DNA of 64,000 nucleotides, taken from contig JADZCT010000018.1 in assembly GCA_020851455.1 (NCBI GenBank), positions 62,001-126,000 of the forward strand, read 5' to 3'. This document shows, piece by piece, positions 46,392 to 64,000 of the stretch. The translations under genes were made by a program, and so were the position numbers. Numbering within the stretch: the stretch's first letter is position 1; every line of letters begins with the position of its first letter. Source of the stretch: Gemmatimonadaceae bacterium (GTDB lineage Bacteria; Gemmatimonadota; Gemmatimonadetes; Gemmatimonadales; Gemmatimonadaceae). Below the pieces are notes generated by a model, which saw only the letters and a list, made by a program, of their open reading frames with translations, did not search any database and was not told where the DNA came from.

Positions 46392-46500
46392 AAGTGTCCA
46401 TCCTCCTGTTGCGGTGGGAGTGCCATCACGAATCCTGAGCCAGCCAGATCGCATTCACGCTACGGGATGGACGCGAAGTTCGCAAACCCCGCGCGGCGAA

Positions 46501-46516: not shown

Positions 46517-46570
46517 GATGTCATATTACATTCATGATGCGGTCAAGCAGCGCCACTTGCCCGACGAGCC

Positions 46571-46984
46571 GTGGGTAACCGGGGCGTCGGCAGCGACAGC
46601 GCCGCCCACGGCTCCGTACGAGTGGACAAATGGCTCTGGGCGGCGCGCTTCTTCAAGACGCGCGCGCAGGCGAGCGAGGCCGTCGGCGGCGGGAAGGTGG
46701 AAGTCGGCGGCGAGCGGGTGAAACCCGCGCGCGCGTTGCGAGCGGGAGACGTGGTACGGATCCGGCTCGGCCCGTACGAGTACGTGGTCACGGTACTCTC
46801 GGTGAGCGACAAGCGCGGGCCGGCCGCCGTTGCGCGCACTCTGTACGAAGAGACCGTCGAGTCGCGCGAACGGCGCGAGCGCCTTGCGTGGAATCTGCAC
46901 CACGCAGCGCCCGTCATCGAACCCGGGAGAGGCCGCCCCACAAAGAAGGATCGGCGTGAGCTGGACCGGACGCGACGCCGCTAG
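46571..46984 (+). CDS. hslR: Hsp15-like S4-domain RNA-binding protein
   Basis: Small ribosome-associated S4 protein. VRVDKWLWAARFFKTRAQA (about 16-34) is the S4 alpha-L signature; GKVEVGGERVKPARALRAGD is the rest of the domain; the basic tail RGRPTKKDRRELDRTRRR resembles Hsp15, which binds 50S subunits carrying stalled nascent chains. The annotated GTG at 46571 gives 137 residues; a GTG at 46622, directly before DKWLWAARF, is also plausible. Confidence 0.85.
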   Translation: MGNRGVGSDSAAHGSVRVDKWLWAARFFKTRAQASEAVGGGKVEVGGERVKPARALRAGDVVRIRLGPYEYVVTVLSVSDKRGPAAVARTLYEETVESRERRERLAWNLHHAAPVIEPGRGRPTKKDRRELDRTRRR

Positions 46985-47062
46985 GGTCGGCCGCCTGCAA
47001 CTCAGGGTGTGGCACCACTTCACCCGGTTCGACCGCTACCGAACGCTGGGCGCCACGCCTGG

Positions 47063-47749: not shown

Positions 47750-47868
47750 GAGACGGAATCTACGCGGCAAGAAACTGTGCAACGAACCGCAGGGCAGGCT
47801 GCACCACGAGTCATCACTGCGGCGACCTGCCGCCCGGCCAGGTGCAGGATCGGCGTGCATGGTTGCCC

Positions 47869-50800: not shown

Positions 50801-51882
50801 GCGGGGTTCATCGCGACGAGCGTGGCCGCGGCGCTTTCGCCCAGTGCGGCGGCGCCCGGCAGGCGCGCCATCGCTCCGGCAACGTCGGCCGCGGCGGCGA
50901 ATGGAACGTGCCGCTCCGCCGACTGGATCTGCACCCCCGCGATGCGCGAACGCTTTGCCTTGAGCCGCGCGGCAAAATCCTGCAGGAGCCGCGACTTGCC
51001 CATCCCCGCGGACGCGGTGACGTGAACGTGCGAGAACCCGCCCGCGCGCGCCTGGCTCCAGTGCTCGATGAGCCGCGCGAACTCGCGCTCCCTGCCAACC
51101 AGGTCGGTAACGAACGCGATCCCCGCGCGCACGCCGCCCGGAATCGCGTCGCTCCGAAGCGAAGCGCGCGCCTCGGCGATCGAGGACCGCGTTGCCGGCT
51201 CGGGGGCTATCTCCTCGGCGAGCAGGAATCGCTCGATCGAGTCGGCCTCGGCGGTGGCACCCAGAGGGTCGCTCGATGCGAGCAGCGCCTCGAGCACCAG
51301 CCTGTGGCCGGTCTGCGCCCACGGATCGCCGTCGCGCGCGCGCCGCGCCAGCGCCACGCCCTCCCGGAAACGCCCGGCAGCCAGCGCCTCACGCGCCGCC
51401 TTCTCCGCGCAGCGTACGAAGAGCCCTCGCAGCCGGCTGCGTTCGGTATCGGCCCAGCGCTCGAACTCGCCGGCGCCAGGAAGCGAAAGCGGCGCCAGAA
51501 ACTCCCCCCTGTAGCAGTCCACCGCCGCCTGGCAGCGGCCCGCATCCACCTCGGCGCAGAACCGGTCGCGGTCGCTCTCGAGCGGGCACGTCAGCGCGAT
51601 CTCGGATCCCGAGGTAGCCATCACGCAGTCGCCGAGGCGCCGCCTGATGTGCCACGCCGTCTGGCGGAGGGCGTGGCGGCCTGCTTCCGGAGCCAAGTCG
51701 GGCCAAAGCATTCCGACCAGTTCGTCGCGGCCAGCCGTCCGGCGGGGTGCGCAGGCCAGGTAGGCCAGCAGGGCCGACGGCTTCCCAGGCCCGAACCGCG
51801 CGCCGGCCGCGTCGCCCCGCTCGGCGCTGCACGCCCCGAGCGTCAGGATCACCAGCGACGGCAGGTCGTCGGCCGGAGTCAT
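47869..51882 (-). CDS. Transmembrane BTAD-AAA regulator with TolB-like propeller, Big_2 and jelly-roll-like domains
   Basis: A 1337-residue multidomain protein. In order: winged-helix DNA-binding region of the SARP/AfsR type (about 8-105), BTAD helical repeats (about 105-245), an AAA ATPase with Walker A ASAGMGKS (near 291-298) and Walker B ILVDDLHWAD, a helical region, one transmembrane helix (about 702-725, preceded by RRRWR), a beta-propeller with TolB/PD40 blades (GDLSPDERFLAF, NPMWSPGGGLIAFGRT), a Big_2-like stretch (VTWTSLDTMVVRVSADGVVSPVAAG) and a C-terminal beta region of about 200 residues resembling a LamG/concanavalin fold. The positive residues before the helix put the DNA-binding half inside and the propeller outside. 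ATG 51882 is favoured over GTG 51900 because GAGG lies upstream. Ligand and target genes unknown. Confidence 0.85.
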   Translation of the reverse strand: MTPADDLPSLVILTLGACSAERGDAAGARFGPGKPSALLAYLACAPRRTAGRDELVGMLWPDLAPEAGRHALRQTAWHIRRRLGDCVMATSGSEIALTCPLESDRDRFCAEVDAGRCQAAVDCYRGEFLAPLSLPGAGEFERWADTERSRLRGLFVRCAEKAAREALAAGRFREGVALARRARDGDPWAQTGHRLVLEALLASSDPLGATAEADSIERFLLAEEIAPEPATRSSIAEARASLRSDAIPGGVRAGIAFVTDLVGREREFARLIEHWSQARAGGFSHVHVTASAGMGKSRLLQDFAARLKAKRSRIAGVQIQSAERHVPFAAAADVAGAMARLPGAAALGESAAATLVAMNPALSSVFTAQPEAAAGGDAVLRRALALAELAHLVADEAPLAILVDDLHWADPESRAVILAMIARLDGARAMAVTAARPSEDPILLWQSVESLALDPLDAQAVADLVSSIATLPDEAWAAVLGKALHGASGGQPLGVVETLQLALDRCVLCIEEGTWRCTDPAQLDALLARGSALDRRIAALDGPDLAIARLLSAAGMPLLTVMLAPGAGLREEDVVAHLQSLEQRGFVRAAGARWAIAHDEIANAVLAAAPDAALREAHRALGTAYASAPGAKPQLAIEHFVRSNDVRPVGDLFVSDLRRARKEGDWRPTAALWRQFAGVAAAAELASVGLPRVPLGLRRRWRVGAIAGAAVVAVAALALGASALRRQTSARAWIELRAPHDSVLVTARAPLSASTFLVSGPLRMNRTFTPLSVSQETDAARGYAHGLRLSSGDLIYHRTVGDSGGIDIFRRTADGAEQRMTNAPGDDVEGDLSPDERFLAFLTQRWDAHEHTDLGVLDVRSGAVRRLTRTDAYEANPMWSPGGGLIAFGRTFFIDRTPEVCVIGPDGTGERCATAPGGAAAEPLGWRGPREVLLSVRNDTARALVALDVVSWSYRPIHEGAAAYVASRNGEFFAAGYGVPDEDGDVWMVGRTDGAGSLRRVAWPEPVAIVTFADGSVPTPHLASARTVAPPAPLRADERARLAVRGVDQRGEPYPVVGVTWTSLDTMVVRVSADGVVSPVAAGAGRVVASVGGWLVDTAAIDVAKPAPSSTSAAASAPANEALAERWEAINSSRWVSFGYPRPFIAAKDGQRVLSLNGDSTFDSGVHSARLFSPADGLAVHAMVSVRLTALQWQTAGVWVMAVAPAELRRWDHLTGGLPPARPAGECAAGLPQGEGMPGGERGGLTGPRMLRGYELTPAQKRGGWVTVDIQVFPDGRCAFAIDGIPRAVTGRAFSPGDSVAVVLGGKAHRTESLVGPVEVWTGIRPGINWGPVLVRR

Positions 51883-51931
51883 GACACTAAACTGCCTCAC
51901 AGGAGCGTCGGATGCACGTCGGCCCCGCCGC

Positions 51932-51960
51932 TGGAGCCGGCGGCGCCGCGCTGATATTAT
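51932..51960 (+). promoter_or_regulatory. Putative promoter of the 51-residue membrane protein
   Basis: TGGAGC (51932-51937) and TATTAT (51955-51960) are 17 bases apart; the -10 matches 5 of 6 positions, the -35 only 3. The start codon follows after 25 bases. Located in the 103-base divergent region shared with the large regulator gene. Confidence 0.4.
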
Positions 51961-51985
51961 TCCCCGTCCACCACGGAGCGGCAGA

Positions 51986-52141
51986 GTGCCAGAAGAACGC
52001 TACAATCCGCACAACAAGGGCTGGGGCGCGGCGGCGCTCATCATCACCCTCGCGATCCTCGCGAACGTCACGGCCTATACGATCCACAAGGCAACGTACC
52101 TCAAGCCGGACAAGTCCAGGCAAGAGGCGGCACAGCACTAG
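51986..52141 (+). CDS. Small single-pass membrane protein
   Basis: A 51-residue protein beginning (GTG) MPEERYNPHNKGWG, then a hydrophobic helix (about 15-36, AALIITLAILANVTAYTI), and a basic-acidic tail with KATYLKPDKSRQEAAQH. No family recognised. The GTG start is preceded by GGAGCGGCAGA; the open frame extends further upstream but there it is Arg-rich. It is encoded divergently from the large BTAD regulator and ends 74 bases before a strong terminator shared with infA. Confidence 0.6.
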   Translation: MPEERYNPHNKGWGAAALIITLAILANVTAYTIHKATYLKPDKSRQEAAQH

Positions 52142-52214
52142 ACGCACCGGCCGGGCCGGCGGCGCAGGGCGGGCTCGGCCCAACGGTACGATGGCTGGCC
52201 CGGGAACGAACGAA

Positions 52215-52243
52215 GGGCGATGCGCCAAACCGGCGCGTCGCCC
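52215..52243. terminator. Bidirectional terminator between small ORF and infA
   Basis: 12-bp stem GGGCGATGCGCC / GGCGCGTCGCCC (one G-T pair) with loop AAACC, flanked by GAA and CCCTTT, so both directions have a short A/T tail. The flanking genes converge on it. Confidence 0.8.
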
Positions 52244-52265
52244 CCTTTGCTTGCCCCCGTGCCGC

Positions 52266-52487
52266 TCAGTTCTTGTGGCGAAAGGTGATCCTGCCCCGGC
52301 TCAGGTCGTACGGCGACACCTCGACCGACACCCTGTCACCCTGCAGCACCCGGATGCGGAACCTCCGCATCTTGCCGGCCATTGTCGCGAGCACGTCGTG
52401 CCCGTTCGTCAGGTGCACGCGGAAGGTCGCGCTGGGCAGCACTTCCGTAACCGTTCCTTCGAGTTCGATCGCTTCTTCCTTCGCCAT
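52266..52487 (-). CDS. infA: Translation initiation factor IF-1
   Basis: The 73-residue S1-like OB-fold factor that binds the ribosomal A site with IF-2 and IF-3. [18 protein letters not shown], the FRVHLTNGH strand, [15 protein letters not shown] and [14 protein letters not shown] are the standard family segments. It is alone on its strand here rather than in the ribosomal-protein cluster. Confidence 0.97.
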
Positions 52488-52516
52488 TGAGCCCTGACCT
52501 GGGGGACAGGCCCACC

Positions 52517-52545
52517 GTGACCGACTGGCGGGCCGGGGATATTCT
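52517..52545 (+). promoter_or_regulatory. Putative promoter of the M20D amidohydrolase gene
   Basis: GTGACC (52517-52522) and TATTCT (52540-52545), 17 bases apart, each 4 of 6 consensus positions, with the start codon 44 bases downstream. Confidence 0.35.
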
Positions 52546-52588
52546 TGTAATTGTAGTGCCGCCGGGTCACCCTAACCAGCCACCGACC

Positions 52589-53944
52589 ATGCCCACCGGA
52601 ACCCAGCGCCCCACGGCCGCCTTCGCGGCAGCCGCGATCCTGGCCTCCATGGCCGTCCTCCCCGCAGCCGCACCGGCGCAGGGCAGGCAGCCAGTGCCAG
52701 GTCAGGCCACCCGCTACGAATCCGACATCGCCGCGGTCATGGACAGCGTCGTTTTGTGGCGCCGCGACATTCACGAGCACCCCGAGCTCGGCAACCGCGA
52801 GGTGCGCACGTCGAAGCTCGTGGCCGACCGGCTCCGCGCGCTTGGCATCGAGGTGCGCGCCAACGTTGCAAAGACCGGCGTTGTCGGTGTGCTCCGCGGC
52901 GGGAAGCCGGGCCGCACGGTGGCGCTCCGCGCCGATATGGACGCCCTCCCGGTCACCGAGCAGACGGACCTGCCCTTCAAGTCGAAGGTGACGAGCACCT
53001 ATGGCGGCCAGGCGGTTGGCGTGATGCACGCCTGCGGCCACGACGCCCACACCGCAATGCTGCTCGGCGCTGCCACGGTGCTGGCGAAGCACCGCGCCGA
53101 GCTTCCGGGCACGGTGGTTTTCCTCTTCCAGCCCGCCGAGGAAGGCCCGCCACCGGGTGAGACCGGCGGCGCCGCCGACATGGTGAAGGAGGGCGCGCTC
53201 GACAACCCGAAGGTTGACGCAGTCTTCGGGCTGCACACCTGGCCCGACACCGCAGGGCGGATATCGTACAGGCCGCGCGGGGCGATGTCGGCATCCGACG
53301 TGCTCAACATCGTGGTGGTCGGGCGGCAGACGCACGGCGCGGTGCCGTGGCGAGGCGTGGATCCGATCACCGTCTCCAGCCAGATAGTGAACGCACTCCA
53401 GACGATCGTGTCGCGCCAGACCGACATCGGGGCCGGCCCCGCGATAGTGACGGTCGGCACGATCAACGGCGGCGTACGCCACAACATCATCCCCGACAGC
53501 GTGGTGATGACCGGCACGATCCGCACCTTTGACGCGACCGCGCGGACGGAAATACACGCCAGCATCAGGCGCATGGCCACGCAGATAGCCGCGGCGTCGG
53601 GCGCAACGGCCCGCGTCACGATCGGCATGGGGACGGACATGGTGTACAACGACCCCGCGCTCACGGCGCAGATGGGCCCGACGATCGAGCGCGTGACGGG
53701 CGGGCACGTGAACACGAACGGCGCATGGACGCCGTCGGAGGACTTCTCCGAGTACACGAAGAACATCCCGGGGCTGTTCGTCTTCCTGGGCGTCAACGCC
53801 CCTGGTGTCACCGTCGAGCAGGCCGCCGCCAACCACTCGCCGCTCTACTTCGTGAACGAAGACGCGCTCCCCACCGGCGTGCGCGCGCTCGTTTCGCTGG
53901 CGACCGACTACCTCGCCCAGGCGCCGGCGAAGCGGACTCCGTAG
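52589..53944 (+). CDS. Exported M20D-family amidohydrolase
   Basis: A 451-residue metal-dependent peptidase/amidohydrolase. A signal peptide (about 1-31, ending APAQG) sends it to the periplasm. The fold marks are IHEHPELGNREVRTS, the metal ligand region LRADMDALPV and MHACGHDAHTAMLLGAA, the catalytic EE in FQPAEEG, and the dimerisation-domain segment with VGTINGGVRHNIIPDSV; a C-terminal ligand lies in TPSEDFSEY. Related enzymes hydrolyse N-acyl amino acids or hippurate; substrate unknown. The ATG at 52589 begins the signal peptide. It is 13 bases before pnuC. Confidence 0.9.
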   Translation: MPTGTQRPTAAFAAAAILASMAVLPAAAPAQGRQPVPGQATRYESDIAAVMDSVVLWRRDIHEHPELGNREVRTSKLVADRLRALGIEVRANVAKTGVVGVLRGGKPGRTVALRADMDALPVTEQTDLPFKSKVTSTYGGQAVGVMHACGHDAHTAMLLGAATVLAKHRAELPGTVVFLFQPAEEGPPPGETGGAADMVKEGALDNPKVDAVFGLHTWPDTAGRISYRPRGAMSASDVLNIVVVGRQTHGAVPWRGVDPITVSSQIVNALQTIVSRQTDIGAGPAIVTVGTINGGVRHNIIPDSVVMTGTIRTFDATARTEIHASIRRMATQIAAASGATARVTIGMGTDMVYNDPALTAQMGPTIERVTGGHVNTNGAWTPSEDFSEYTKNIPGLFVFLGVNAPGVTVEQAAANHSPLYFVNEDALPTGVRALVSLATDYLAQAPAKRTP

Positions 53945-53957
53945 TGCAAGCGGCGCG

Positions 53958-54557
53958 GTGAACCCGGTCGAGCTGGTCGCGGTTGCGTTCGGCCTCGTAA
54001 GCGTGGCGCTCTCGGCGCGCGAGCACATAGTCGCGTGGCCCACGGCGATCGTGAACGTGGGGCTGTTCTTCTTCCTGTTCTGGGAAGCACGGCTCTACGC
54101 CGACTCGGTGCTGCAGCTCGTTTACCTCTCGCTCTCGGTGTACGGGTGGTGGGCATGGCTGCACGGCGGCGCGGCGCGCGGCGCCCTCCGCGTCTCGCGC
54201 GGCACGCGGCGCCTCTGGCTGCTCACACTCCCCGCCACCATTGGCGCCGGGTTCGCGCTGGGGGCATTCCTCGAGAGGCACACCGACTCGCCCGTGCCCT
54301 TCCTCGACGCGCTCCTCACCACGACAAGCCTGCTCGCGCAGTGGATGATGACGCGCAAGATCCTCGAGAACTGGGTGCTGTGGATCGTCGTTGACATCGT
54401 GTACGTGCCGACGTTCATCGCGCGCGGGCTGCCGTGGACGGCGCTTCAGTACGGCGTGTTCCTCATCCTCGCGTGGATGGGGTTCGTGGGGTGGCGGGCT
54501 TCGTGGCGCGCCGACCGGGCCGGCACCCCGCCAACGCAGGCGGCGCCGGCGCAATGA
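53958..54557 (+). CDS. pnuC: Nicotinamide riboside transporter PnuC
   Basis: Inner-membrane carrier for nicotinamide riboside, 199 residues, about seven hydrophobic helices. The family core is seen in WPTAIVNVGLFFFLFWEARLYAD, SLSVYGWWAW and the later WIVVDIVYVPTFIARGL. Facilitated entry is driven by phosphorylation inside the cell; the next gene encodes a matching kinase and starts within the pnuC stop (ATGA). PnuT (thiamine) and PnuX (riboflavin) belong to the same family, but the kinase neighbour favours the nicotinamide riboside substrate. Confidence 0.9.
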   Translation: MNPVELVAVAFGLVSVALSAREHIVAWPTAIVNVGLFFFLFWEARLYADSVLQLVYLSLSVYGWWAWLHGGAARGALRVSRGTRRLWLLTLPATIGAGFALGAFLERHTDSPVPFLDALLTTTSLLAQWMMTRKILENWVLWIVVDIVYVPTFIARGLPWTALQYGVFLILAWMGFVGWRASWRADRAGTPPTQAAPAQ

Positions 54558-55153
54558 CGGTCCGGATCGTCGTGACCGGCCCCGAGTGCACGGGCAAGAC
54601 GACCCTGGCCGCTGCACTTGCCGACTCGATTGGCGCCAAGTGGGTGCCCGAGGCGGCCCGGCTCTACGCCGAGCGCGCTGCGCGCCGGGGACGCACTCTC
54701 AGCGCGGGCGACGTGGAGCCGATCGCGCGGGCGCAGATGAGGGCCGAAGACGCCGCGCTCCGGACTGGCCGCGGTGACAGTGCCATGGGCTATCGCGGCG
54801 ATGGTGCTGGCGCACGGGCCACGACCCGTCCACCCGCCCGCCTCGTGCTCGACACCGACCTCGTAAGCACCGCGGTGTACGCGCAGCACTATTACGGCCT
54901 CGACGTGCCATGGATCAGCGCGGCCGCGCTCGAGCGGCGCGGCAACCTCTACGTGCTCGCCGCGCCCGACATCCCGTGGGTCGCAGACGGCATCCGCGAC
55001 CGCCCCGCCGCCCGCGAGGCCATGTTCGCCCAGTTCCAGCGCGCGCTGCAGCGCATCGGGGCGAACGTCGTCGAGGTGCGTGGGCTCGGCGACGCGCGCT
55101 TCCAGGCCGCGATCAAGGAAGTGCGCTCGCTCCTCGAAGGGGAGCGCAAGTGA
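54554..55153 (+). CDS. NadR-type nicotinamide riboside kinase
   Basis: A 199-residue P-loop kinase resembling the C-terminal domain of NadR. Walker A is VTGPECTGKTTLA (7-19); VPEAARLYAE follows as in NadR; LDTDLVSTAVYA is the acidic strand; DIPWVADGIRDRP near 150-162 contains the lid-like Asp/Arg residues. No HTH and no adenylyltransferase domain. The start shares ATGA with the end of pnuC, so import and trapping of the nucleoside are produced together. A stretch 80-92 (MGYRGDGAGARAT) is an unusual glycine-rich insertion. Confidence 0.85.
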   Translation: MTVRIVVTGPECTGKTTLAAALADSIGAKWVPEAARLYAERAARRGRTLSAGDVEPIARAQMRAEDAALRTGRGDSAMGYRGDGAGARATTRPPARLVLDTDLVSTAVYAQHYYGLDVPWISAAALERRGNLYVLAAPDIPWVADGIRDRPAAREAMFAQFQRALQRIGANVVEVRGLGDARFQAAIKEVRSLLEGERK

Positions 55154-55186
55154 GCGCGTGCGTGGCCTCGCGATGATCGCGACGCG

Positions 55187-56548
55187 ATGATCGCGCAAGC
55201 GGCGGCATTCACACAGGCGGCCGCGCTCGCACAGGCGCCGATCGCCGAGCAGCCAGTGTCGGAACTCGCCACCGCCGCGCTCCAGGCCACAATCACCGCC
55301 GGCCTCGCGCTCGTCTGCCTCTGGGTGTGGCGGCGCACGCGCGAGCCCCACTTCGCGTGGTGGGCAGTGGCCTTTGGCATCTACGACCTCCGCATCGGCG
55401 CAATCTCCGCGTTCCTCGCAACAGGGAACCGCGCCTGGCTGTTCTGGCACCAGGTCGTCACCGGCTGGACCGCCCTCGCGCTCTTCTGGGCAGCGATGGT
55501 CTTTGCCCACCGGCCGCAGTGGCGCCGCTGGTACTGGGCGCTGCTCGCCTTCCCGCTCGTCTGGAGCGATATCGCCGTCAACCGGCTCGAGAACTTCGCC
55601 CTCGCCGCCGCGCCGGCGGTGATCTTCATCTCCGCGACGACACTCTGGACGGGCGTCGTGCTGCTCCGCCACCGGAAGCCAGCCACGCGCACGGCGTCCA
55701 CGATCCTTGGCTGGACCTTCCTCGCGTGGGGCGTGCACCACCTCGACTACCCGATCCTCCGCGCGCAGGGAGCATGGCTCCCGTGGGGATACTACCTCGA
55801 CATCTTCTTCGTGCTCGGCGTGGGCGCGGGGATCCTCCTCCTCGTGAACGCCGACCTCGCGAGCCGGCTCCAGGCCCGCACGGCGGAACTCGAGCGGCTC
55901 TCGCGGCTCATGGTGCGGCAGCACGAGGACGAGCGCCACCGGCTCTCCATCGCCCTGCACGACGAAACGGCGCAGGTATTCGCCGCAGTGAAGATGCAGC
56001 TCGGCGTGGTGCGTGAGCAGGTGAACCCGGCCGCAGCGGCGGTGCTGGACCGCGCTATCACGCTTTTCGACGACGGTATCCAGGGCGTGCGGCGCGTGAC
56101 GCGCGACCTCCGCCCCGCCCTCCTCGACGACCTCGGCCTCCTACCCGCCCTTCGCTCGCTCGTTGGCGAGTTCGTCGAGCAACAACGCCTTCGCGTGACG
56201 TTCGACGCGCCGCAGGACCTTCCGGTGATGCCCAGCGACGCCGAAGTCGCGGTGTACCGCGCCGTGCAGGAAGCGCTCACCAACGTCAGCCGCCACGCCA
56301 GCGGGGCCGCGGCGCGCGTGCGGGTGGCCGCCGACGCCAACGCGCTGCGGGTGGAAGTGAGCGACGACGGCCCCGGGCTCGCCGCCCCCGACACCCTCGC
56401 CCGCGCCGACGCCGAGGGGCACCTCGGCATCACCGGCATGCGCGAGCGCATCGGCGCGCTGGGGGGCGACCTCCGCGTGGAGTCCACGCCCGGGCGCGGC
56501 CTGCGGCTCTCGATCACGATCCCCGTCGCGGAAGACCGCGCAATGTGA
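55187..56548 (+). CDS. NarL-type sensor histidine kinase with multi-pass sensor
   Basis: A 453-residue kinase. Residues about 28-215 contain six or seven hydrophobic helices and no periplasmic loop domain, so the sensor is the membrane part. A coiled coil (SRLQARTAELERLSRLM) leads to HisKA_3 with RHRLSIALHDETAQ, His in ALHDE; HATPase_c follows (YRAVQEALTNVSRHA, DDGPGL, HLGITGMRERIGALGG). Directly upstream of a LuxR-type response regulator whose GTG/ATG region overlaps or abuts this stop. Confidence 0.92.
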   Translation: MIAQAAAFTQAAALAQAPIAEQPVSELATAALQATITAGLALVCLWVWRRTREPHFAWWAVAFGIYDLRIGAISAFLATGNRAWLFWHQVVTGWTALALFWAAMVFAHRPQWRRWYWALLAFPLVWSDIAVNRLENFALAAAPAVIFISATTLWTGVVLLRHRKPATRTASTILGWTFLAWGVHHLDYPILRAQGAWLPWGYYLDIFFVLGVGAGILLLVNADLASRLQARTAELERLSRLMVRQHEDERHRLSIALHDETAQVFAAVKMQLGVVREQVNPAAAAVLDRAITLFDDGIQGVRRVTRDLRPALLDDLGLLPALRSLVGEFVEQQRLRVTFDAPQDLPVMPSDAEVAVYRAVQEALTNVSRHASGAAARVRVAADANALRVEVSDDGPGLAAPDTLARADAEGHLGITGMRERIGALGGDLRVESTPGRGLRLSITIPVAEDRAM

Positions 56549-56559
56549 GAGAATTCCGG

Positions 56560-57225
56560 ATGGCTCCGATTCGCGTTATGGTGGTGGACGACCACGCTGT
56601 GGTGCGTGAAGGGATCCGCCACGTGCTCGGCGACCCGGAGCGGTACGCCGTGGTCGCCGAGGCATCGAGCGCGGCCGAGGCAATCGAGCGCGTCGCGAGC
56701 GCGTCGCCCGACGTGATCATCCTCGACATCTCGATGCCCGGCGGGTCCGGGCTAGGTGCCGTGGCGGAACTCGTCGAGCGGGCTCCACGGGCAAAGGTGC
56801 TCATGCTCTCCGTGCACGACGACACCGAGTACGTGATCGAGAGCGTGCACGCAGGGGCGCACGGCTACCTGCGCAAGGATTCCACGCCGGCAGAGCTGCG
56901 CACCGCGATTGCAACCGTGTGCGAAGGGCGGCGGTACTACTCGCCGCAGGTCGCGGGCGTACTCGCGAGCGCCCTGCGGAACGGCGGAGAAGAGCGCCCC
57001 GCCGGCAAGCCGCCGCGCGCAACCGACGTGCTCTCGCCGCGCGAACTGGAGATCCTCGCGCACATCGCCGACGGCGAGACGAGCCGCGAGATTGGCGCGC
57101 TGCTCGGGATCAGCGTGCGCACCGTGGAAGCGCACCGCAACTCGCTCATGCGAAAGCTGGGAGTACGAACCATCGCGGGACTCACGCGGCTGGCGATCGA
57201 GCAGGAGCTCGTCGGGCACGGATGA
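56560..57225 (+). CDS. NarL/FixJ-family response regulator
   Basis: A 221-residue DNA-binding regulator. Receiver 1-120 with Asp56 (IILDISMPGGSG), Ser/Thr switch in MLSVHDD and Lys in YLRKDSTPAEL; LuxR-type HTH near 153-215 (LSPRELEILAHIADGETSREIGALLGISVRTVEAHRN). The ATG at 56560 starts MAPIRVMVVDDH; a GTG at 56545 overlapping the kinase stop would add five residues. Pairs with the preceding kinase; the adjacent TonB receptor is a possible target. Confidence 0.93.
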   Translation: MAPIRVMVVDDHAVVREGIRHVLGDPERYAVVAEASSAAEAIERVASASPDVIILDISMPGGSGLGAVAELVERAPRAKVLMLSVHDDTEYVIESVHAGAHGYLRKDSTPAELRTAIATVCEGRRYYSPQVAGVLASALRNGGEERPAGKPPRATDVLSPRELEILAHIADGETSREIGALLGISVRTVEAHRNSLMRKLGVRTIAGLTRLAIEQELVGHG

Positions 57226-57239
57226 CGTCCACGCCCCTG

Positions 57240-57267
57240 CCTCGCAGCCGCCCGGGGTCCTGCGAGG
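57240..57267 (+). terminator. Hairpin after the response regulator gene
   Basis: CCTCGCA / TGCGAGG perfect 7-bp arms with a 14-base GC-rich loop, 15 bases after the stop. No T-run. Confidence 0.4.
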
Positions 57268-57351
57268 CCCTGCCAGCGGACGACTGCCGGCGCAGCCCGG
57301 TGGAGATTCGCCCGACACGCGAACTGCGTAGTTCTACCTAAGCGGCTCTGT

Positions 57352-57410
57352 AGTCACGCCAATGGTTGCACCCCGCGCAGGGCCGTAACGTGAGCGCGCA
57401 GTCACGCCAA
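57352..57410 (+). repeat. Paired 11-bp direct repeats upstream of the TonB receptor
   Basis: AGTCACGCCAA occurs at 57352-57362 and again at 57400-57410, 48 bases apart start to start, within the 210-base region before the receptor start at 57436. The spacing (about 4.6 helical turns) and position suggest a regulator binding site, possibly for the neighbouring response regulator. Confidence 0.4.
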
Positions 57411-57435
57411 CTCAACCGAGTACGGAGCCGGCCCA

Positions 57436-59655
57436 GTGCTTCACACACCCGCCCGCCGCCTCGCCGCGGCGGCCTCGTCAATTCTCCTCCTCCTCTCCGC
57501 GGCCCCGGCTGCGAGCCACGCGCAGCAGGCGCCCAAGCCCCCGACGGGATCCGCCGGCGCGGCACCGGTCGCGGATTCCACGCTCGGCGCGACGTCGCTG
57601 CGATCGGTGACCATCACCGCCACGCGTGTCACGACCGACGTCCTCAAGGTTGCGGCGCCAGTGAGCGTGATAGACAGCACGCGCATCTCGACCGAGCTTC
57701 CCAACAGCGCGGCCGACCTGCTTCGCGCCGAGCCAGGCGTGGACATCATCGGCACCGGGGTGAACCAGGTGAGGCCAGCGATCCGGGGCCAGCGCGGCCA
57801 GCGTATCCTGCTGCTCGAGGACGGCATCCGCCTCAACAATTCGCGCCGCCAGCAGGACTTTGGCGAACTGCCCGCGCTCGTTGACCCGTCGCAGCTCGCG
57901 CGGGTGGAAGTAGTGCGCGGGGCGGCGTCGGTGCTCTACGGCACCGACGCAATTGGCGGTGTGGTGAACCTCATCACCCGCTCGCCGCGCGCGAACGGCA
58001 TTGACCGTTTCGGCGGCCGGCTCGGCTACCAGTACGGGTCGGAGGGCGCGTTGAGCAAGGTATCGGCAGGCGTGTCTGGATCGAGCGGGCACCTCGCCTA
58101 CTCGCTGGACGGCACGGCGCGGGTGGCAGGCGACTACAGCGCACCAGCGGGCACATACGGCAACGTGCGCCTCACAAACGATACGCCGCTCCAGTACAGC
58201 GGCGTGCGCGACAACAACGCCTCGGCGGCGCTCACATTCACCAGCGCCTCCGGGCACCACCTCTTCGCCAGGTTCGAGCACTACGGCGCCAACGACGCGG
58301 GCTTCGGGTACATTCCGCCCTCGCTCATCGGGTCCGACCCCACGGTAATCCAGATCCGGTACCCATACCAGGAAACGAGCAGGCTCACTTTCGGATTCCG
58401 CTCCGGTACACTCCGCTGGGCAATTGCCGACCGGCTCGACTTCACCGCTTACACGCAGGCCAACCGGCGAAGTCTCGCGCAGCACATCTTCGTGCCGTTC
58501 CCCTCGGGCTCCCTGCCCGGCGCCGGCGTTGACGTGAACACCGCGAACTTCACCAACATCGCGACAACCGGGCTCCGCGCCGAGGCTACCAAGGCAACGT
58601 CGCATGTGATCTTCACGTACGGGAGCGACTTCTACCTCGACGATGCCAGGGGCACCGACTCCAGCACGACGACGATCCTCGGGTTCGGCAAGCCGCAGTC
58701 GCAGGTCAGCAACAGGCCGCAGCTCCCTGACGCCACCCTCGGCAGCTTTGGGATATTTGCGCAAGGGGACATCCGCCCCACGGACCGGTTCTCGGTGATC
58801 CTTGGCGTGCGCGGGCAGTCAACCGCCAGCGCGCCCAGGGAAGCGCTCATCGGCGCGGCCGGCAAGCAGAACCACCAGAGCTCGACGGCCGTGTACTCCG
58901 CCAACGCCGTATACTCGCTCACCGAGCACCTCTCGCTCGTGGGCACGCTCGGGAGCGCCTTCCGCTCGCCAAACCTCGTAGAGCGCTACTTCGATGGCCC
59001 CACGCCCGAGGGGTCCGGCTACCAGAAAGCCACGCCCGACCTCCGCCCCGAGCGGAGCGTGAACCTCGACGGCGGCCTCAAGTACCGCAGCGGGCGGTAC
59101 ACGGGCGAGGTGTCCGCGTTCCGGAACGACATCCGCGACGCAATCATCGTGCAGAAGACCAGCGAGAAACTGAACGGGCTCGACGTGTACCAGAACGTGA
59201 ACATCGGGAAGCTGCGCGCGACGGGAATCGAGGCATCCGGCGAGGTGCAGCTCGACCGTGGTTTCTCGGCGGCCGCCAACTATACCACGCTCAAGTCAAC
59301 GAACGTCACAATGCCCGAGTGGCCGATCGGCGACTCGTACTCGAGCAAGCTCAACCTCGCGCTCCGCTGGGTGTCGAGCGGCGGGCGGTGGTGGGGCGAG
59401 TATTCGGTGCGGCGCAACGGCGAGCAGAAGGACATCGCGGTTGACGCGAGCCCCGTTGGCCGCGTACTCCCCGCGTTCACCGTGCAGAACCTGCGCGGCG
59501 GTATCCGCGCCTGGCAGCTCGGCGCCGTGCGGCAGGACATCACGATTGGCGTGAGCAACCTCGGTAACGTGCTCTATACCGAGGCGGCAAACGCGTCGTT
59601 CTTCCGGCCCGAGCCCGGGCGGACGCTGGTGCTTGGGGTGACGACGACGTTCTGA
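57436..59655 (+). CDS. TonB-dependent outer-membrane receptor
   Basis: A 739-residue TonB-gated receptor. Signal peptide about 1-29 (ASHAQ), TonB box-like VTITATR near 58-64, plug domain (VSVIDSTRISTELPNSAADLLRAEPGV, IRGQRGQRILLLEDGIRLNN, LARVEVVRGAASVLYGTDAIGGVVNLITR) and a 22-strand barrel ending LVLGVTTTF. It resembles BtuB/vitamin or siderophore receptors rather than SusC. Downstream of pnuC, the NR kinase and a two-component system, so an NAD precursor or related vitamin is a reasonable guess for the ligand. GTG start with GGAG before it. No riboswitch motif was recognised in the leader. Confidence 0.92.
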   Translation: MLHTPARRLAAAASSILLLLSAAPAASHAQQAPKPPTGSAGAAPVADSTLGATSLRSVTITATRVTTDVLKVAAPVSVIDSTRISTELPNSAADLLRAEPGVDIIGTGVNQVRPAIRGQRGQRILLLEDGIRLNNSRRQQDFGELPALVDPSQLARVEVVRGAASVLYGTDAIGGVVNLITRSPRANGIDRFGGRLGYQYGSEGALSKVSAGVSGSSGHLAYSLDGTARVAGDYSAPAGTYGNVRLTNDTPLQYSGVRDNNASAALTFTSASGHHLFARFEHYGANDAGFGYIPPSLIGSDPTVIQIRYPYQETSRLTFGFRSGTLRWAIADRLDFTAYTQANRRSLAQHIFVPFPSGSLPGAGVDVNTANFTNIATTGLRAEATKATSHVIFTYGSDFYLDDARGTDSSTTTILGFGKPQSQVSNRPQLPDATLGSFGIFAQGDIRPTDRFSVILGVRGQSTASAPREALIGAAGKQNHQSSTAVYSANAVYSLTEHLSLVGTLGSAFRSPNLVERYFDGPTPEGSGYQKATPDLRPERSVNLDGGLKYRSGRYTGEVSAFRNDIRDAIIVQKTSEKLNGLDVYQNVNIGKLRATGIEASGEVQLDRGFSAAANYTTLKSTNVTMPEWPIGDSYSSKLNLALRWVSSGGRWWGEYSVRRNGEQKDIAVDASPVGRVLPAFTVQNLRGGIRAWQLGAVRQDITIGVSNLGNVLYTEAANASFFRPEPGRTLVLGVTTTF

Positions 59656-59712
59656 CGATCGGCAGTCGGGCTTCCGCGGTGGAGGCCGGCCCACCACGTG
59701 TAAGGATTCGAC

Positions 59713-59740
59713 CGACGCCACTCCAGACGGGGTGGCGTCG
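59713..59740 (+). terminator. Strong terminator hairpin after the TonB receptor
   Basis: 12-bp stem CGACGCCACTCC / GGGGTGGCGTCG (one G-T pair) with an AGAC tetraloop, 58 bases after the stop, separating the receptor from the SusC-like gene. Confidence 0.8.
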
Positions 59741-59883
59741 CTCGCTTGTACCATCGCCGGACCGGCAATAGCTTCGAGGTTGGCGCTGCGTGCGGCGTGA
59801 CTCCGGACAGTCCAGCGGAGTGTCCAGGTGTTCCCCGCCCGCGCCCGTTACCCCCAGCCCCCATCCCGCCAGGAGATATCTCG

Positions 59884-62800
59884 ATGCGGATCCGCAGGTG
59901 CATGCAGCCCATCCGGGCCGCGGCGCTCGGCGCCATGCTTTTCGTGGCTTTCGCGCTCGCCGCCCCCTCCACCGCGGCGGCGCAGGCCGTTGGCCAGATC
60001 TCCGGCACCGCGCGCGACACCGCATCGGGCGCGGGCATCCCCGGCGTTCAGGTGCTCGTCGTCGGCACGCGGCTAACCGCGGTGGCCGACGCCAGCGGCA
60101 AGTACTCCATCTCGGGCGTCCCCGTCGGCACGCACACCATCCAGTTCCGCCGCGTGGGCTTCGGGCCGCGCGACGTGAGCGGGGTAACGGTCACCGCCGG
60201 CGGCACCGCCACCGTGAACGCAGCGCTCACCGCGATCGCGCTCCAGCTCGAGGCCGTGGTAACCACCGGCGTGGTTGATCCCACTTCGGGCACCCGCGTG
60301 CCGTTTACCGTGGGCCACCTCGACATGGCCAACGCGCCCGTGCCGCACGCCAACCCGATGGAAACGCTGCAGGGCAAGATGGCGGGCGTCACCACCCTCA
60401 CCGACGGTCAGCCGGGAAGCGGCACCAACGTGCTCCTCCGCTCGCCCACCAGCATCAACAAGTCGAACAGCCCGCTCATCGTCGTTGACGGCGTGATCCA
60501 GACGCAGGCGTTCGGCGCCAGCACGGCCGACCTCGAGTCAATGGATATCGAGAGCGTCGAGGTAGTGAAGGGCGCCGCGGCGGCCTCGCTTTACGGCTCG
60601 CGCGCATCCAGCGGCGTGATCAGCATCCGCACGCGCCGCGCGGCCGACATGACCCTGGGCGCAACGCGCGTCACCGCCCGCAGCGAGGCGGGCCAGAACT
60701 CGCTCGGCAACGAGATCCCGTGGTCGCGGTACCACTCGTACATGGTGAACGCGTCGGGGCAGTACATCAATGCGGCCGGCGCCGTGGTGCCCCGCAGCCA
60801 GCGCGTGGCCGACTCGGTGTTCCGCCGCTTCCAGGACAAGCCGTTCATCGTGCCCATCTACAACCAGGTGAACGCGTTCTTCCACCCGGGCGGGTTCTAC
60901 AAGAACTCGGTGAACATCGGGCAGAACACGGGGCGCACCAACTGGTTCGGCTCGTTCGTTAACTCGAAGGAAGACGGCGTGATCCTTGGCCACGGTGGGT
61001 ACGGCGAGAACGCCGTGCGCCTCAACCTCGACCACCGTCCCACCGACAACCTCACCCTCTCGTTCAGCGGCTACCACATGCGCGCCCAGCGCGAGGAGAT
61101 CGGCGACCCGTTCTTCCCTCTCATCAATCAGTCGTCCGACGTGAACCTGCGCGTTCCCGACGCCGACGGCACGCCGTACGTGTTCCAGGCCGACTCGTCC
61201 GAGGGGCGCGAGGCCAACCCGCTCTACACGCTCTACAACACCAGCGACTGGACGAAGCGCGCGCGCACGCAGGGCGGGATCGAGGCGCGCTACCGCCCGC
61301 TCGGCTGGCTGGGCTTCGACGCCAACGTGAGCTACGACCGGTCCGACCGCCGCGAGAACTACTTCCTCGACGCGGGCGTCAAGACCGGCACCTACCCGAC
61401 CGGCAGCCCGGGTGAGATCAGCGAGTTCTCCGGCACCACCGACGCGCTCAACTCCGCCGCCAGCGCCAACCTCACCTGGCAGCTTGGCAGCTTCAACGTC
61501 CGCAGCACCGTGCGCGGGCTCATGGAGCGCGAGACCAACCAGACCACGACCGCAGGCGGCACCATCCTCTCTGCGCCGGGCGTACGGTCGCTCAACAACG
61601 CGCAGAGCCGGACCGTCTCGTCGGCGACCACTGAGATCAGGTCGCTCGGCTACTTCGCAACGCTCGGCGCCGACTACGACGGCAAGTACATCTTCGACGG
61701 CCTCGTGCGGCGCGACGGCAGTTCGCTCTTCGGCGAGGCCGAGCGCTGGCACTCGTATTACCGCCTGAGCGGCTCGTACCGCATCTCGCAGGAACCGTGG
61801 TGGCCCTTCCCGGCGTTCAACGAGTTCAAGCTACGCGCCTCGCGCGGCACGGCCGGCGGCCGCCCGAGCTTCAACGACCAGTTCGAGACCTACGCCTTCA
61901 CCGCCGGCGGCGGGCTCGGCAAGTCCACCCTCGGCAACCGCTTCCTCAAGCCCGAACTCTCCACCGAGACGGAAGTCGGCATTGACGCGATCTTCCGCGA
62001 TCGCGTGTCGCTGCAGCTCTCATACGCGCGCAACCGCGTGCAGGACCAGCTCGTCGCGATCCCGCTCGCCAAGATGTACGGCTACCCCTCGCAGTGGCAG
62101 AACGCCGGAACCGTGGAGGGAAACACCATCGAAGGAACGATCGAGGCGCAGATCGTCGCCAAGCCACGGTTCGAGTGGCGGCTGGGGCTCGTGGCCGACC
62201 GCTCGCGCAACAAGATCACCGAGTTCGACCGCTCGTGCTTCACCACCAACACGATCGCGTACCGCTGCGCTGGCGAAACGCTCGGCGCTATGTACGGGTT
62301 CCTGTTCATGACATCTCCCGGACAGCTCCCCGCCGAGGCAGCCGCGCGCGGCTCCGAGTTCCAGTTGAACGACGAAGGCCTGCTCGTCTGGGTGGGCCCC
62401 GGGAACAAGTTCACCGAAGGCGAGACCAAGCGGCTCTGGGGCACCACCGCGACGATCGGCTCGGCGAACTACGGATGGGGAATGCCTATCACGCAGATTG
62501 ACTCGGTGGGCAATCCGCGCGTCGCGAAGATCGGGGACGGTAACCCCGTGGGACACTTTGGCGTCTCGAACGACATCACATGGCGCGGGCTCCGCGTGTA
62601 CGCCCTCGTTGACGTGCAGATGGGCGGCGACGTGTACAACCAGACCCGCCAGCGCATGTACCAGTACGGCCGTCACCGCGACGTGGACCAGGCCGGCAAG
62701 CCGCAGGACCTCAAGAAGCCGGTTGACTACTACGTGTCGCTGTACAACGCCAGCAACATCGTGAACTACTTCGTGGAGAACGCCGGCTTCGTGAAGCTGC

Positions 62801-63027
62801 GCGAGATCTCGCTCACGTACCAGTTCCCGAACAGCCTGCTGCGGCCGCTTGCCCGCGCCGGGGTGAAGGGCGCGCAGTTCTCGATCATCGGGCGCAATCT
62901 CCTCACGTTCACCAGGTACAAGGGCTACGACCCGGAAGTGTTCGGGGCCAACCCGCTCGTGCGGCTCGACAGCTACAGCTACCCGCGCTACCGCACCGTG
63001 ACGAGCGCCCTCCAGGTGAACTTCTGA
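59884..63027 (+). CDS. SusC/RagA-family TonB-linked outer-membrane protein
   Basis: A 1047-residue TonB-dependent transporter of the SusC/RagA group. A signal peptide (about 1-34, ending AAAQA) is followed by a carboxypeptidase-D regulatory-like domain (GQISGTARDTASGAGIPGVQV), then a plug with the family signature NPMETLQGKMAGVTT and SVEVVKGAAAASLYGSRASSGVISIRT, and a large barrel ending FTRYKGYDPEVFGANP and VTSALQVNF. Works with the SusD-like lipoprotein encoded 32 bases later to take up oligosaccharides or peptides. ATG at 59884 follows a perfect AGGAG. Confidence 0.95.
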   Translation: MRIRRCMQPIRAAALGAMLFVAFALAAPSTAAAQAVGQISGTARDTASGAGIPGVQVLVVGTRLTAVADASGKYSISGVPVGTHTIQFRRVGFGPRDVSGVTVTAGGTATVNAALTAIALQLEAVVTTGVVDPTSGTRVPFTVGHLDMANAPVPHANPMETLQGKMAGVTTLTDGQPGSGTNVLLRSPTSINKSNSPLIVVDGVIQTQAFGASTADLESMDIESVEVVKGAAAASLYGSRASSGVISIRTRRAADMTLGATRVTARSEAGQNSLGNEIPWSRYHSYMVNASGQYINAAGAVVPRSQRVADSVFRRFQDKPFIVPIYNQVNAFFHPGGFYKNSVNIGQNTGRTNWFGSFVNSKEDGVILGHGGYGENAVRLNLDHRPTDNLTLSFSGYHMRAQREEIGDPFFPLINQSSDVNLRVPDADGTPYVFQADSSEGREANPLYTLYNTSDWTKRARTQGGIEARYRPLGWLGFDANVSYDRSDRRENYFLDAGVKTGTYPTGSPGEISEFSGTTDALNSAASANLTWQLGSFNVRSTVRGLMERETNQTTTAGGTILSAPGVRSLNNAQSRTVSSATTEIRSLGYFATLGADYDGKYIFDGLVRRDGSSLFGEAERWHSYYRLSGSYRISQEPWWPFPAFNEFKLRASRGTAGGRPSFNDQFETYAFTAGGGLGKSTLGNRFLKPELSTETEVGIDAIFRDRVSLQLSYARNRVQDQLVAIPLAKMYGYPSQWQNAGTVEGNTIEGTIEAQIVAKPRFEWRLGLVADRSRNKITEFDRSCFTTNTIAYRCAGETLGAMYGFLFMTSPGQLPAEAAARGSEFQLNDEGLLVWVGPGNKFTEGETKRLWGTTATIGSANYGWGMPITQIDSVGNPRVAKIGDGNPVGHFGVSNDITWRGLRVYALVDVQMGGDVYNQTRQRMYQYGRHRDVDQAGKPQDLKKPVDYYVSLYNASNIVNYFVENAGFVKLREISLTYQFPNSLLRPLARAGVKGAQFSIIGRNLLTFTRYKGYDPEVFGANPLVRLDSYSYPRYRTVTSALQVNF

Positions 63028-63059
63028 CCGCTCCCCCGACCCCAAGCCGAGACACACGA

Positions 63060-64000
63060 ATGCGACAGATACGAAACTGGGTTGCCATGGCCGGCGGAGC
63101 CGCCCTGATCATGGGCTGCCAGGACCTGGCAGTGACGAACCCCAATCTTGCCGACCGCGAGCGCGCCACGCGCCAGCCAACCACCGTCGAGACGCTCGTC
63201 TCGACGAGCTTCCGCAATTGGTGGCCTGTGGGGCACGGCTACTACCCGGCGTGGGCGCTTGCCACCATCGCCAACGACGTGACCTCGGGCTTTGCCGACT
63301 ACGGCCAGCTCGAGCCGTCGGCCGAGCCGCGATCGGCGTGGAACAACAGTCCCGTAAACAACCGCAACTCCGTGAACGTGAGCCCGTTCAACGCGCTCTA
63401 CGGCACCATCTCGTCGGTGAACGACGCCCTTACCGCGATGGACCAGGGGCTTAGCCTCGGCGACGCCGCCCGTACCGCGCGGGCGCGCGCCGTCGGGAAG
63501 TTCTTGCAGGGCATCTCGCACGGATCGCTGGGGATGCTGTTTGACCAGGCGTACATCGTTGACGAGAAGACGCGGCTCGACACGATCAGGAAGCCGCAGC
63601 TCCAGCCGTACAAGGACGTGCTTGCGGCGGCCGTGGCGCAGATGGACGCGGCGATCGCGATTGCCAACGCCCAGAGTTTCACCATTCCCGCGAGCCCGTG
63701 GCTTTACACCGCGATGAGCTCGGCCGACCTCGTGCGACTCTCGAACTCGTTTGCCGCGCGATTCCTCGCGTACGGGGCTCGCACGCGGGCCGAGCGCGCC
63801 GCGGTTGACTGGAACAAGGTCATCCAGCGGATAGACGCCGGCATCACGACCGACTTTTCGCCCGCCGGCGAGCCCAGCGTGTTCGAGGACAACTGGAAGC
63901 GGCTGCTCGCGCGGCTCCGCACCGTGGGGCGGCCGAGCGACTACGGGCGGCCGAGCTACTGGACGATCGGGCCGGCGGACTCTACCAACGGCTTCGTGAA
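63060..64000 (+). CDS. SusD/RagB-family lipoprotein, 3' end outside window
   Basis: Surface lipoprotein that caps the SusC-like barrel and captures substrate. The frame runs from ATG at 63060 to the right edge (313 codons). Lipobox is ALIMGC with Cys20; next comes DLAVTNPNLADRERATRQPT, the usual opening after lipidation. The TPR-like helices typical of SusD follow (GKFLQGISHGSLGMLFDQAY, QPYKDVLAAAVAQMDAAI, VRLSNSFAARFLAYGARTR). The C-terminal part is missing. Confidence 0.9.
   Translation, partial: MRQIRNWVAMAGGAALIMGCQDLAVTNPNLADRERATRQPTTVETLVSTSFRNWWPVGHGYYPAWALATIANDVTSGFADYGQLEPSAEPRSAWNNSPVNNRNSVNVSPFNALYGTISSVNDALTAMDQGLSLGDAARTARARAVGKFLQGISHGSLGMLFDQAYIVDEKTRLDTIRKPQLQPYKDVLAAAVAQMDAAIAIANAQSFTIPASPWLYTAMSSADLVRLSNSFAARFLAYGARTRAERAAVDWNKVIQRIDAGITTDFSPAGEPSVFEDNWKRLLARLRTVGRPSDYGRPSYWTIGPADSTNGFV

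Follow-up and report, generated by a model that had tools for sequence, protein, structure and literature searches.

A predicted nicotinamide riboside salvage operon and a TonB-dependent receptor cassette probably form two abutting units at a Gemmatimonadaceae locus

The stretch of DNA analysed here (the window; 64,000 nucleotides of a Gemmatimonadaceae contig) carries, according to its open reading frames and their Pfam and NCBIfam matches, genes for an M20 hydrolase, PnuC, a nicotinamide riboside (NR) kinase-like protein, a histidine kinase (HK), a response regulator (RR) and a TonB-dependent receptor, in this order:

52577..53944, + strand: M20D-type amidohydrolase (PF01546; TIGR01891, 327.9 bits; synteny)
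53958..54557, + strand: PnuC, predicted NR facilitator, GTG start (PF04973, TIGR01528)
54554..55153, + strand: NadR-kinase-domain-like protein, predicted ribosylnicotinamide kinase (PF13521, TIGR01526 kinase part)
55187..56548, + strand: HK with a 7-helix membrane part, then HisKA_3 and HATPase_c domains
56560..57225, + strand: NarL/LuxR-type RR (Response_reg and GerE)
57326..57341, + strand: putative operator, dyad 1, GCGTAGTTCTACCTAA
57348..57363, + strand: putative operator, site 2, CTGTAGTCACGCCAAT, 22 bases beyond dyad 1
57436..59655, + strand: TonB-dependent receptor (TBDR), plug and barrel, start codon uncertain

The M20 gene ends 13 bases before pnuC begins, pnuC and the NR-kinase-like gene overlap by ATGA, and 33 bases separate the latter from the HK gene. 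The RR start was taken as ATG 56560; an alternative GTG at 56545 would overlap the HK end. A preliminary description of the locus had placed pnuC, the NR-kinase-like gene with its ATGA overlap, HK, a LuxR-type RR and a TonB receptor in a row; these five genes were borne out, and the M20 gene upstream of pnuC had been missed. Because the same order recurs in relatives at about 45–74% protein identity, the row is not a product of chance. An Rfam scan of positions 45000–64000 returned five matches, each far below its gathering score, and no riboswitch (TPP riboswitches included) at that score, and a sigma-70 and terminator scan found no promoter-like site and 4 terminator-like sites against 2.7 expected.

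PnuC matched PF04973 (183 bits, E 6e-54) and TIGR01528 above the equivalog cut-off (84 against 42.45 bits), and its family profile matches the solved PnuC 4qtn. The NR-kinase-like protein matched AAA_28 (PF13521) above cut-off (107.7 bits, E 9e-31) and had two NadR-type PDB matches; its TIGR01526 match (84 of 341 bits) was confined to the kinase region, and the NMN adenylyltransferase and repressor domains were not seen with Pfam or NCBIfam. By sequence the two genes look like an NR-salvage pair, with NR as the predicted transport substrate; the PnuC relatives PnuT and PnuX transport other vitamins, according to PMC7749635. The M20 hydrolase has an N-terminus that looks like a signal peptide when judged by eye, and its nearest solved structure is an IAA-amino acid hydrolase homologue. 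Its gene precedes pnuC in 8/8 family genomes of the window's genus (g1), in 6/6 of the genus g13 genomes examined and in seven of eight named pnuC-linked loci, the eighth being cut. In four loci of genus g23, pnuC and the kinase gene lie between IF-1 and an M28 gene, with neither M20 nor the HK–RR–receptor genes. Across the family, pnuC was found in 86 of 118 genomes. NadA is encoded in the window's own genome and in 111/118 family genomes, so NR is probably not essential.

Structure prediction (pLDDT 91.5) gave the N-terminal part of the HK seven long helices and no periplasmic domain, in keeping with the purely membrane-embedded sensor of the preliminary description. Pfam matches to this part were weak and at chance level in 24 members, with none to HisKA_7TM, and a fold search gave nothing below E 0.001, with weak likeness to GPCR/rhodopsin-like bundles. 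The window HK belongs to a short type. Most called relatives from other lineages measure 572–616 aa, and two of three that were tested carry a GAF domain behind the membrane part. The nearest NCBIfam family of the RR is MctR, below its cut-off.

The receptor has Plug and barrel domains in Pfam. Its first match, both by sequence profile (161.8 bits) and by Foldseek, was PhuR (8the), and its identity to known TonB-dependent receptors of the same fold is about 20%. None among the best 25 of 30 NCBIfam families reached its cut-off. No His, Cys or Met is invariant across 17 members; for a haem receptor specifically, the invariant columns of the 17 orthologues hold no His and TIGR01785/01786 fell below cut-off. 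The plug apex is Arg-rich (RRQQDFGE); together with the lack of any invariant His, Cys or Met, this hints at an anionic organic compound as ligand. The plug is nearly identical between pnuC-linked and unlinked members, and linked receptors of the two genera g1 and g13 are about 50–57% identical to that of the window.

We found a receptor orthologue in 19/118 family genomes, 18 of which carry pnuC, while 68 of the 86 pnuC-bearing genomes have no orthologue. The order M20–pnuC–kinase–HK–RR–receptor occurs in the two genera, in 10 of the 19 receptor-bearing family genomes, and is complete in 10/10 of those belonging to either genus. There the HK–RR genes adjoin the salvage genes with mostly overlapping ends; in most linked loci outside the window the kinase and HK genes overlap by 1–4 bases. 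More broadly, 33 of 80 named loci have HK and RR ahead of the receptor; pnuC lies close by in 8 of these and not in the other 25. Among unlinked family loci, HK–RR lies beside the receptor in 7/9 (L064 and L065 being without it), and in L066 an extra called gene separates RR from receptor. Beyond the linked genomes, PnuC was seen in 10/41 receptor-bearing genomes and not in 31, two of which (L100 and L118) come from records titled 'chromosome'; the receptor thus does not regularly co-occur with a Pnu carrier across these genomes, the family figures being 18/19 against 86/118 overall. Conversely, M20–pnuC–HK–RR is retained in three genomes of the window's genus that have neither receptor nor exact motif; they occupy three separate places on the HK tree and all carry a second PnuC type. 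In two Aminicenantes loci (L101, L102) another type of two-component system precedes the receptor.

The cassette also abuts unrelated genes, with gaps of −4 to 13 bases in L113, L125, L126, L150 and L157. Pfam annotation of selected neighbours of unlinked receptor loci revealed no gene recurring across lineages, so the neighbourhood gives no ligand. These neighbours include genes for a fumarase, an AMP-binding ligase, DUF3179, a PQQ dehydrogenase, Kelch and M15 proteins, as well as cytochrome cd1 with an Alginate_exp porin. The preliminary description had held that finding the receptor beside siderophore or cobalamin genes without pnuC would speak against it: the receptor with HK–RR does occur without pnuC, and no siderophore or cobalamin genes were seen among the annotated neighbours. 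It had drawn a parallel with Bacteroidota; the named relatives are Gemmatimonadota. We found no paper that connects a two-component system with PnuC and TonB-dependent receptors in the way described here.

A tandem-dyad motif of the CCGTAGWWCTACGG type lies in the gap between RR and receptor genes. Its total log-odds was 191.5, compared with 50–61 in three shuffled controls. In a held-out test, in which the matrix was learned on the other half of the loci and scored on gaps from the RR stop to the receptor, the motif was present in 28/35 RR–receptor gaps versus 2/39 receptor loci without an RR close by. An earlier version (30/33 versus 1/38) was discarded, since the upstream sequence scored there could reach into the end of the RR gene. 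Two receptor loci lacking a nearby HK–RR, L111 and L140, bear the motif. Dyads are most commonly spaced 23–24 bases apart (7 and 3 of 35 loci), with few loci above threshold. CCGTAGWWCTACGG itself occurs in 2/118 family genomes, at a single place in each, directly upstream of the receptor, and the core of dyad 1 is the sole CGTAGWWCTACS in the 2.96 Mb genome. Site 2 of the window is weak, scoring 7.5 by the matrix and 5.3 when held out, against a cut-off of 5.26.

The RR–receptor gap outscored the 300 bases before M20 in 10/10 linked family loci: 9.4 to 15.1 versus 1.2 to 8.0 in nine of them, and 7.5 versus 4.1 in the window. The best scores before M20 were 8.0 in L059 and 8.2 in the receptor-less L071. 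Because the motif sits at the receptor and is lower-scoring or absent before M20, the two-component system probably controls the receptor through this putative operator. The three genomes that keep HK–RR without receptor or exact motif raise the prospect that the pair may have another target. A search for one in the receptor-less genomes fetched 28 one-mismatch sites; most matches with a matrix score of at least 8 were inside called genes, and five of six intergenic ones were weak (8.0–8.7). One strong lone site (12.9; L195:2999) adjoins the 3′ end of a gene for an EamA transporter.

Besides HK–RR, the commonest companion of the receptor is an uncharacterised multi-helix membrane protein of about 235 aa (31/80 loci). 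Six loci of an acidobacterial clade encode it and the receptor in a single reading frame; the window has no gene for it. It matched HisKA_7TM (PF16927) weakly in 10/22 members (best E 5.5e-4), showed no profile match to PnuC (0.2%) and had a weak 39-column match to the HK sensor (27%). The idea that it replaces PnuC, which is absent from 17/27 loci with the protein and 12/33 without it (Fisher p 0.068), was dropped; a comparison of independent pairs on the receptor tree gave no such association. We tentatively consider, as one joint reading with somewhat less than even chances, that receptor and membrane protein work as a so far undescribed pair that spans both membranes for uptake (or uptake and sensing) and is common to Gemmatimonadota and Acidobacteriota; that in Gemmatimonadota it is governed by a dedicated 7-helix two-component system and tandem-dyad operator, while some Acidobacteriota make a polyprotein with an internal signal peptide; and that the window has lost the membrane-protein half, with PnuC as a neighbouring carrier instead.

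The locus is likely to consist of two abutting units, an NR-salvage operon and a separately controlled receptor cassette, possibly for an anionic ligand. Unit 1 (the M20, pnuC and NR-kinase-like genes) would salvage a NAD precursor: judging by their families, PnuC would admit NR by diffusion and the kinase would trap it as NMN. Unit 2 would comprise HK, RR, tandem-dyad operator and receptor, and in many relatives the small membrane protein. Here the HK, in or at the inner membrane, would respond to the ligand or to an effect of it; the RR would bind the dyads in the gap that separates the RR and receptor genes; and the receptor would take up the ligand with TonB energy. Since unit 2 lies downstream of unit 1 in two genera, HK–RR is probably expressed from the pnuC transcript and the receptor from its own controlled promoter. 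Because the receptor and its two-component system are often carried without a NAD-precursor transporter, the imported compound is probably a different one, taken up in many relatives jointly with the small membrane protein. The HK and receptor trees, which group the pnuC-linked loci alike, agree with the two-unit reading. Observations at odds with two units are the joint order and kinase/HK overlap in the linked loci, the retention of HK–RR without receptor, the weak site 2, the scattered linked HKs, the motif at L111 and L140, and the lone 12.9 site.

The preliminary description instead saw a single dedicated NR import module, receptor included, whose two-component system answers NAD-precursor shortage. 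Its NR-salvage pair and adjoining two-component genes stand, in two genera, and gene order and the PnuC and kinase assignments agree with it. Its proposal that NR crosses the outer membrane through this receptor is not supported, given the 31/41 receptor-bearing genomes without PnuC, the 68/86 pnuC genomes without receptor, the three that keep salvage genes and HK–RR with the receptor missing, and a motif placed at the receptor with no strong counterpart before M20/pnuC and no riboswitch; we regard the model as very improbable. Equally hard to credit, and if anything harder, is that HK–RR serves the salvage operon while the receptor is a passenger, gained in some genomes and lost in others. 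The three g1 genomes, at separate HK-tree positions, would fit this, but HK–RR adjoins the receptor in many pnuC-less loci, and the motif accompanies HK–RR and sits at the receptor, with no similar signal upstream of M20 in most linked loci.

An unlikely, though less remote, alternative is that a cassette once meant for another ligand was recruited beside pnuC in g1 and g13 for a NAD-derived compound, with NMN, NAD or an M20-trimmed NR conjugate crossing the outer membrane. The HKs of linked loci do not form a single clade, so the junction predates its unlinked sisters or arose or spread more than once; an older or repeated junction could mean a function. Recruitment would also accommodate the full order in 10/10 genomes, the second PnuC type of the receptor-less genomes, as though carrier and receptor were matched to each other, and positive plug residues that would suit phosphates. 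Against it stand the near-identity of linked and unlinked plugs, the motif's position, and the prevalence of NadA, by which NR is probably dispensable. Since the five loci of other lineages place the cassette just as close to unrelated genes, an order shared by two genera says little about a common substrate.

The two-unit reading keeps an NR-salvage operon distinct from a receptor cassette; going by neighbourhood alone, the two would be merged. The cassette gains a testable operator, a dedicated HK whose sensor is embedded in the membrane, and a partner protein, which makes its ligand searchable by expression and growth tests.

The closest regulatory parallel considered is PfeRS–PfeA of Pseudomonas aeruginosa, in which an OmpR-type pair with a periplasmic sensor is adjacent to and controls one receptor. 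The window's two-component genes likewise adjoin one TonB-dependent receptor, with putative control, and this adjacency extends across genomes (33/80 named and 7/9 unlinked family loci); unlike PfeRS, the pair is NarL/HisKA_3 with a membrane-embedded sensor. PfeA chains are distant relatives of the window receptor (up to 113.6 bits). The receptor shares its fold with PhuR (haem), Cir, BtuB, OprC and PqqU, from which its low identity and lack of invariant His, Cys and Met set it apart. HisKA_7TM sensors weakly resemble the partner protein and not the membrane part of the window-type HK. The salvage genes resemble the pairing of PnuC with a NadR-type NR kinase; in contrast to NadR, the kinase domain stands alone, and an M20 gene lies ahead of the pair. 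Bacteroidota have receptor–PnuT vitamin pairs, and the window likewise has a receptor and a Pnu-type carrier in one gene row, whereas the receptor here mostly occurs in genomes with no detected Pnu carrier, and the scan of positions 45000–64000 found no TPP riboswitch.

The preliminary description read 53958-59655 of the window as one regulated module for the import of a compound like nicotinamide riboside (NR), receptor included. Its genes, namely pnuC, a NadR-kinase-like NR-kinase gene (nrk), a histidine kinase (HK) with a membrane-embedded sensor, a NarL/LuxR-type response regulator (RR) and a TonB-dependent receptor, were all borne out in place by the ORF list and profile scans, but one gene upstream of pnuC had been overlooked:

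52577-53944, M20D hydrolase with a signal-peptide-like start, preceding pnuC

The hydrolase stands before pnuC in 8/8 family genomes of g1, the genus to which the window belongs (fetched stretches), in 6/6 genomes examined of a second genus, g13, and in seven of the eight named loci linked to pnuC, L092 being the remaining one, cut off there by its contig end. Neighbouring genes were called with an in-house codon-usage script rather than a published program; it overlooked the kinase gene present in the window and reported none in the g1 locus L071. Directly downstream of the row, 59890-63027 encodes a SusC/RagA-type receptor (TIGR04056 above cut-off), which probably belongs to another gene set. 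On the minus strand, 47869-51900 holds a 1343-aa ORF that combines SARP/AfsR-like parts (BTAD, AAA_16) with a PD40 and Big-like stretch at its C-terminus.

PnuC was found in 86 of 118 family genomes (the window's own counted in) and a clear receptor orthologue (at least 370 bits) in 19, a search that scored nine candidates per genome and may have overlooked a few orthologues. In 10 of these 19 (the window's own genome, four further g1 and five g13) the receptor starts 3.1-3.5 kb beyond the point where the pnuC match begins, in the same orientation, and fetched stretches had the order M20-pnuC-nrk-HK-RR-receptor in all 10 linked loci. In the remaining nine it lies elsewhere, away from pnuC, still preceded by HK and RR in seven (exceptions L064 and L065). 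One g13 contig (L082) stops after RR. At four loci of a third genus, g23 (L080, L081, L088 and L089), pnuC and a kinase gene sit between IF-1 and an M28 gene, with no M20, HK, RR or receptor there; two of these genomes carry HK-RR-receptor at a separate place (L068 and L069).

Beyond the family we took the best 80 receptor loci in named genomes (more exist), titled mostly Gemmatimonadota, Acidobacteriota and Aminicenantes. HK and RR orthologues lie upstream of the receptor in 33 of the 80, and pnuC is nearby in 8, all among those 33; both counts keep several loci that duplicate family genomes, which were removed for the kinase tree and the partner/pnuC comparison. PnuC was then sought in the genomes of 42 of the 80 loci (41 genomes; linked, already-seen family and remaining weaker or shorter ones left out). 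It was found in 10 and not detected in 31, two of which are records titled chromosome; assembly gaps may explain some of these absences but hardly all. Counting against a PnuC-free picture, pnuC is present in 18/19 family receptor genomes versus 86/118 overall, with 10 of those 19 coming from the two linked genera. The wider distribution nonetheless argues that NR import, the role first given to the receptor, would not be its general job. Within g1 and g13 the salvage genes and the receptor cassette could share a substrate. Among the Aminicenantes, L101, L102 and L116 have an OmpR-type response regulator followed by the receptor (Pfam run on the L101 member), and L101 and L102 also a HisKA kinase and a sigma-54 activator. 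The receptor of one clade (L110, L137 and L144) is encoded near an Alginate_exp-type porin and a cytochrome cd1/cytochrome c protein.

The receptor consists of plug and barrel, with PhuR the nearest solved structure both by sequence (161.8 bits) and by fold, the latter from a model of pLDDT 69 with a poorly modelled plug apex. The plugs of 17 compared orthologues keep Arg 113, 117, 123, 132, 137 and 138 without exception, but the 17 share no invariant His, Cys or Met. This pattern speaks against conserved side chains that ligate a metal or haem and favours an anionic organic ligand, without pointing to a particular compound.

A further protein, of ~235 aa, accompanies many receptors. This membrane protein has no Pfam match above cut-off, and weak HisKA_7TM likeness and inspection by eye suggest seven helices. 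By tblastn it adjoins the receptor in 31 of the best 80 loci, downstream in 19 and upstream in 12, and it occurs in three family loci, two of them in the genomes of L107 and L126. It is absent beside the receptor in the window. In the pnuC-linked L092 and L093 it begins 3-9 bases past the receptor match, so that the fullest row is M20-pnuC-nrk-HK-RR-receptor-partner. No stop codon separates it from the receptor in six of the 12 upstream cases (L133, L135, L145, L146, L149 and L156, of which L145 shows the end of the partner only and L156 a receptor truncated by the contig end). All six belong to the acidobacterial clade on the receptor tree, L133 under the bare title 'uncultured bacterium', and their receptor part starts, by eye, with an internal signal-peptide-like stretch. 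Such a joint reading frame is a stronger tie between partner and receptor than adjacency.

In 35 gaps from RR stop to receptor start (window counted in), expectation maximisation gave a CCGTAGAACTCCGAAT-like motif, doubled in a number of loci with copies 22-25 bases apart and the first copy palindromic. It scored 191.5 against 50-61 in three shuffles that preserve nothing but base composition. Learned on one half and scored on the other, it passed the 95% shuffle level in 28/35 gaps versus 2/39 receptor loci without RR close by (L107 and loci with <400 bases upstream left out), a test that overstates independence because related sequences stand in both halves. L111 and L140, the two that passed without RR close by, have scores as high as those of true members; the window barely passes (5.3 versus 5.26). 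Its dyad core is the sole CGTAGWWCTACS in the 2.96 Mb genome (reversed-pattern control, 5). CCGTAGWWCTACGG occurs in 2/118 family genomes, at one place each, both ~165-185 bases upstream of the receptor match, and GTANNTCTCCGAAT with zero mismatch in 3/8 g1 genomes, each time at the receptor. The looser CGTAGNNCTACG occurs in 8/14 genomes; six of these have it exclusively at sites distant from the receptor, and there its centre always contains G or C. In a scan of 1.87 Mb of locus sequence no match upstream of M20 or pnuC in a linked locus reached 9.5, a level that the window's own site (7.5) also falls below; by direct scoring, the RR-receptor gap outscores the 300 bases upstream of M20 in 10/10 linked family loci. 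The simplest reading is a putative site of this RR for the receptor. A lone strong match (12.9) lies in one receptor-less genome at L195:2999-3014, where an EamA transporter gene has its 3' end close by.

Linked loci do not group as a single clade, since g1 kinases form a single clade (11 rows, 100/98) and g13-type kinases are sister to those of the unlinked G054, G005 and G089 (100/100); a quick-build receptor tree matches for the rows it includes. Linkage is thus either the older state, later undone, or has arisen or spread repeatedly. Three g1 loci (L071, L072 and L073) have M20-pnuC-HK-RR with RR intact but no receptor, although the contig runs on into an M28 peptidase gene; they amount to three changes on the kinase tree. 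The exact motif is absent from these genomes, and we found no clear other RR target in them. The PnuC tree splits g1, grouping the window, G114, G045 and L166 with g13 (100/98) and placing a second type (G019, G107, G066, G084, G096 and L093) elsewhere (83/53), whereas a quick-build M20 tree keeps g1 together; pnuC (53958-54557 in the window) thus appears to have been exchanged at a fixed position, two types occupying the same slot of the row within one genus. All three receptor-less genomes carry the second type, which counts as a single observation.

Most likely, PnuC would import NR and the kinase step trap it as NMN, probably as salvage rather than a need, since the genome also has NadA. 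The receptor would most likely stand under its own two-component switch, sensing in the membrane. In PfeRS-PfeA a receptor is controlled by its own two-component switch, and we propose that the HK-RR-receptor cassette works likewise; receptor-PnuT pairs are known from Bacteroidota.
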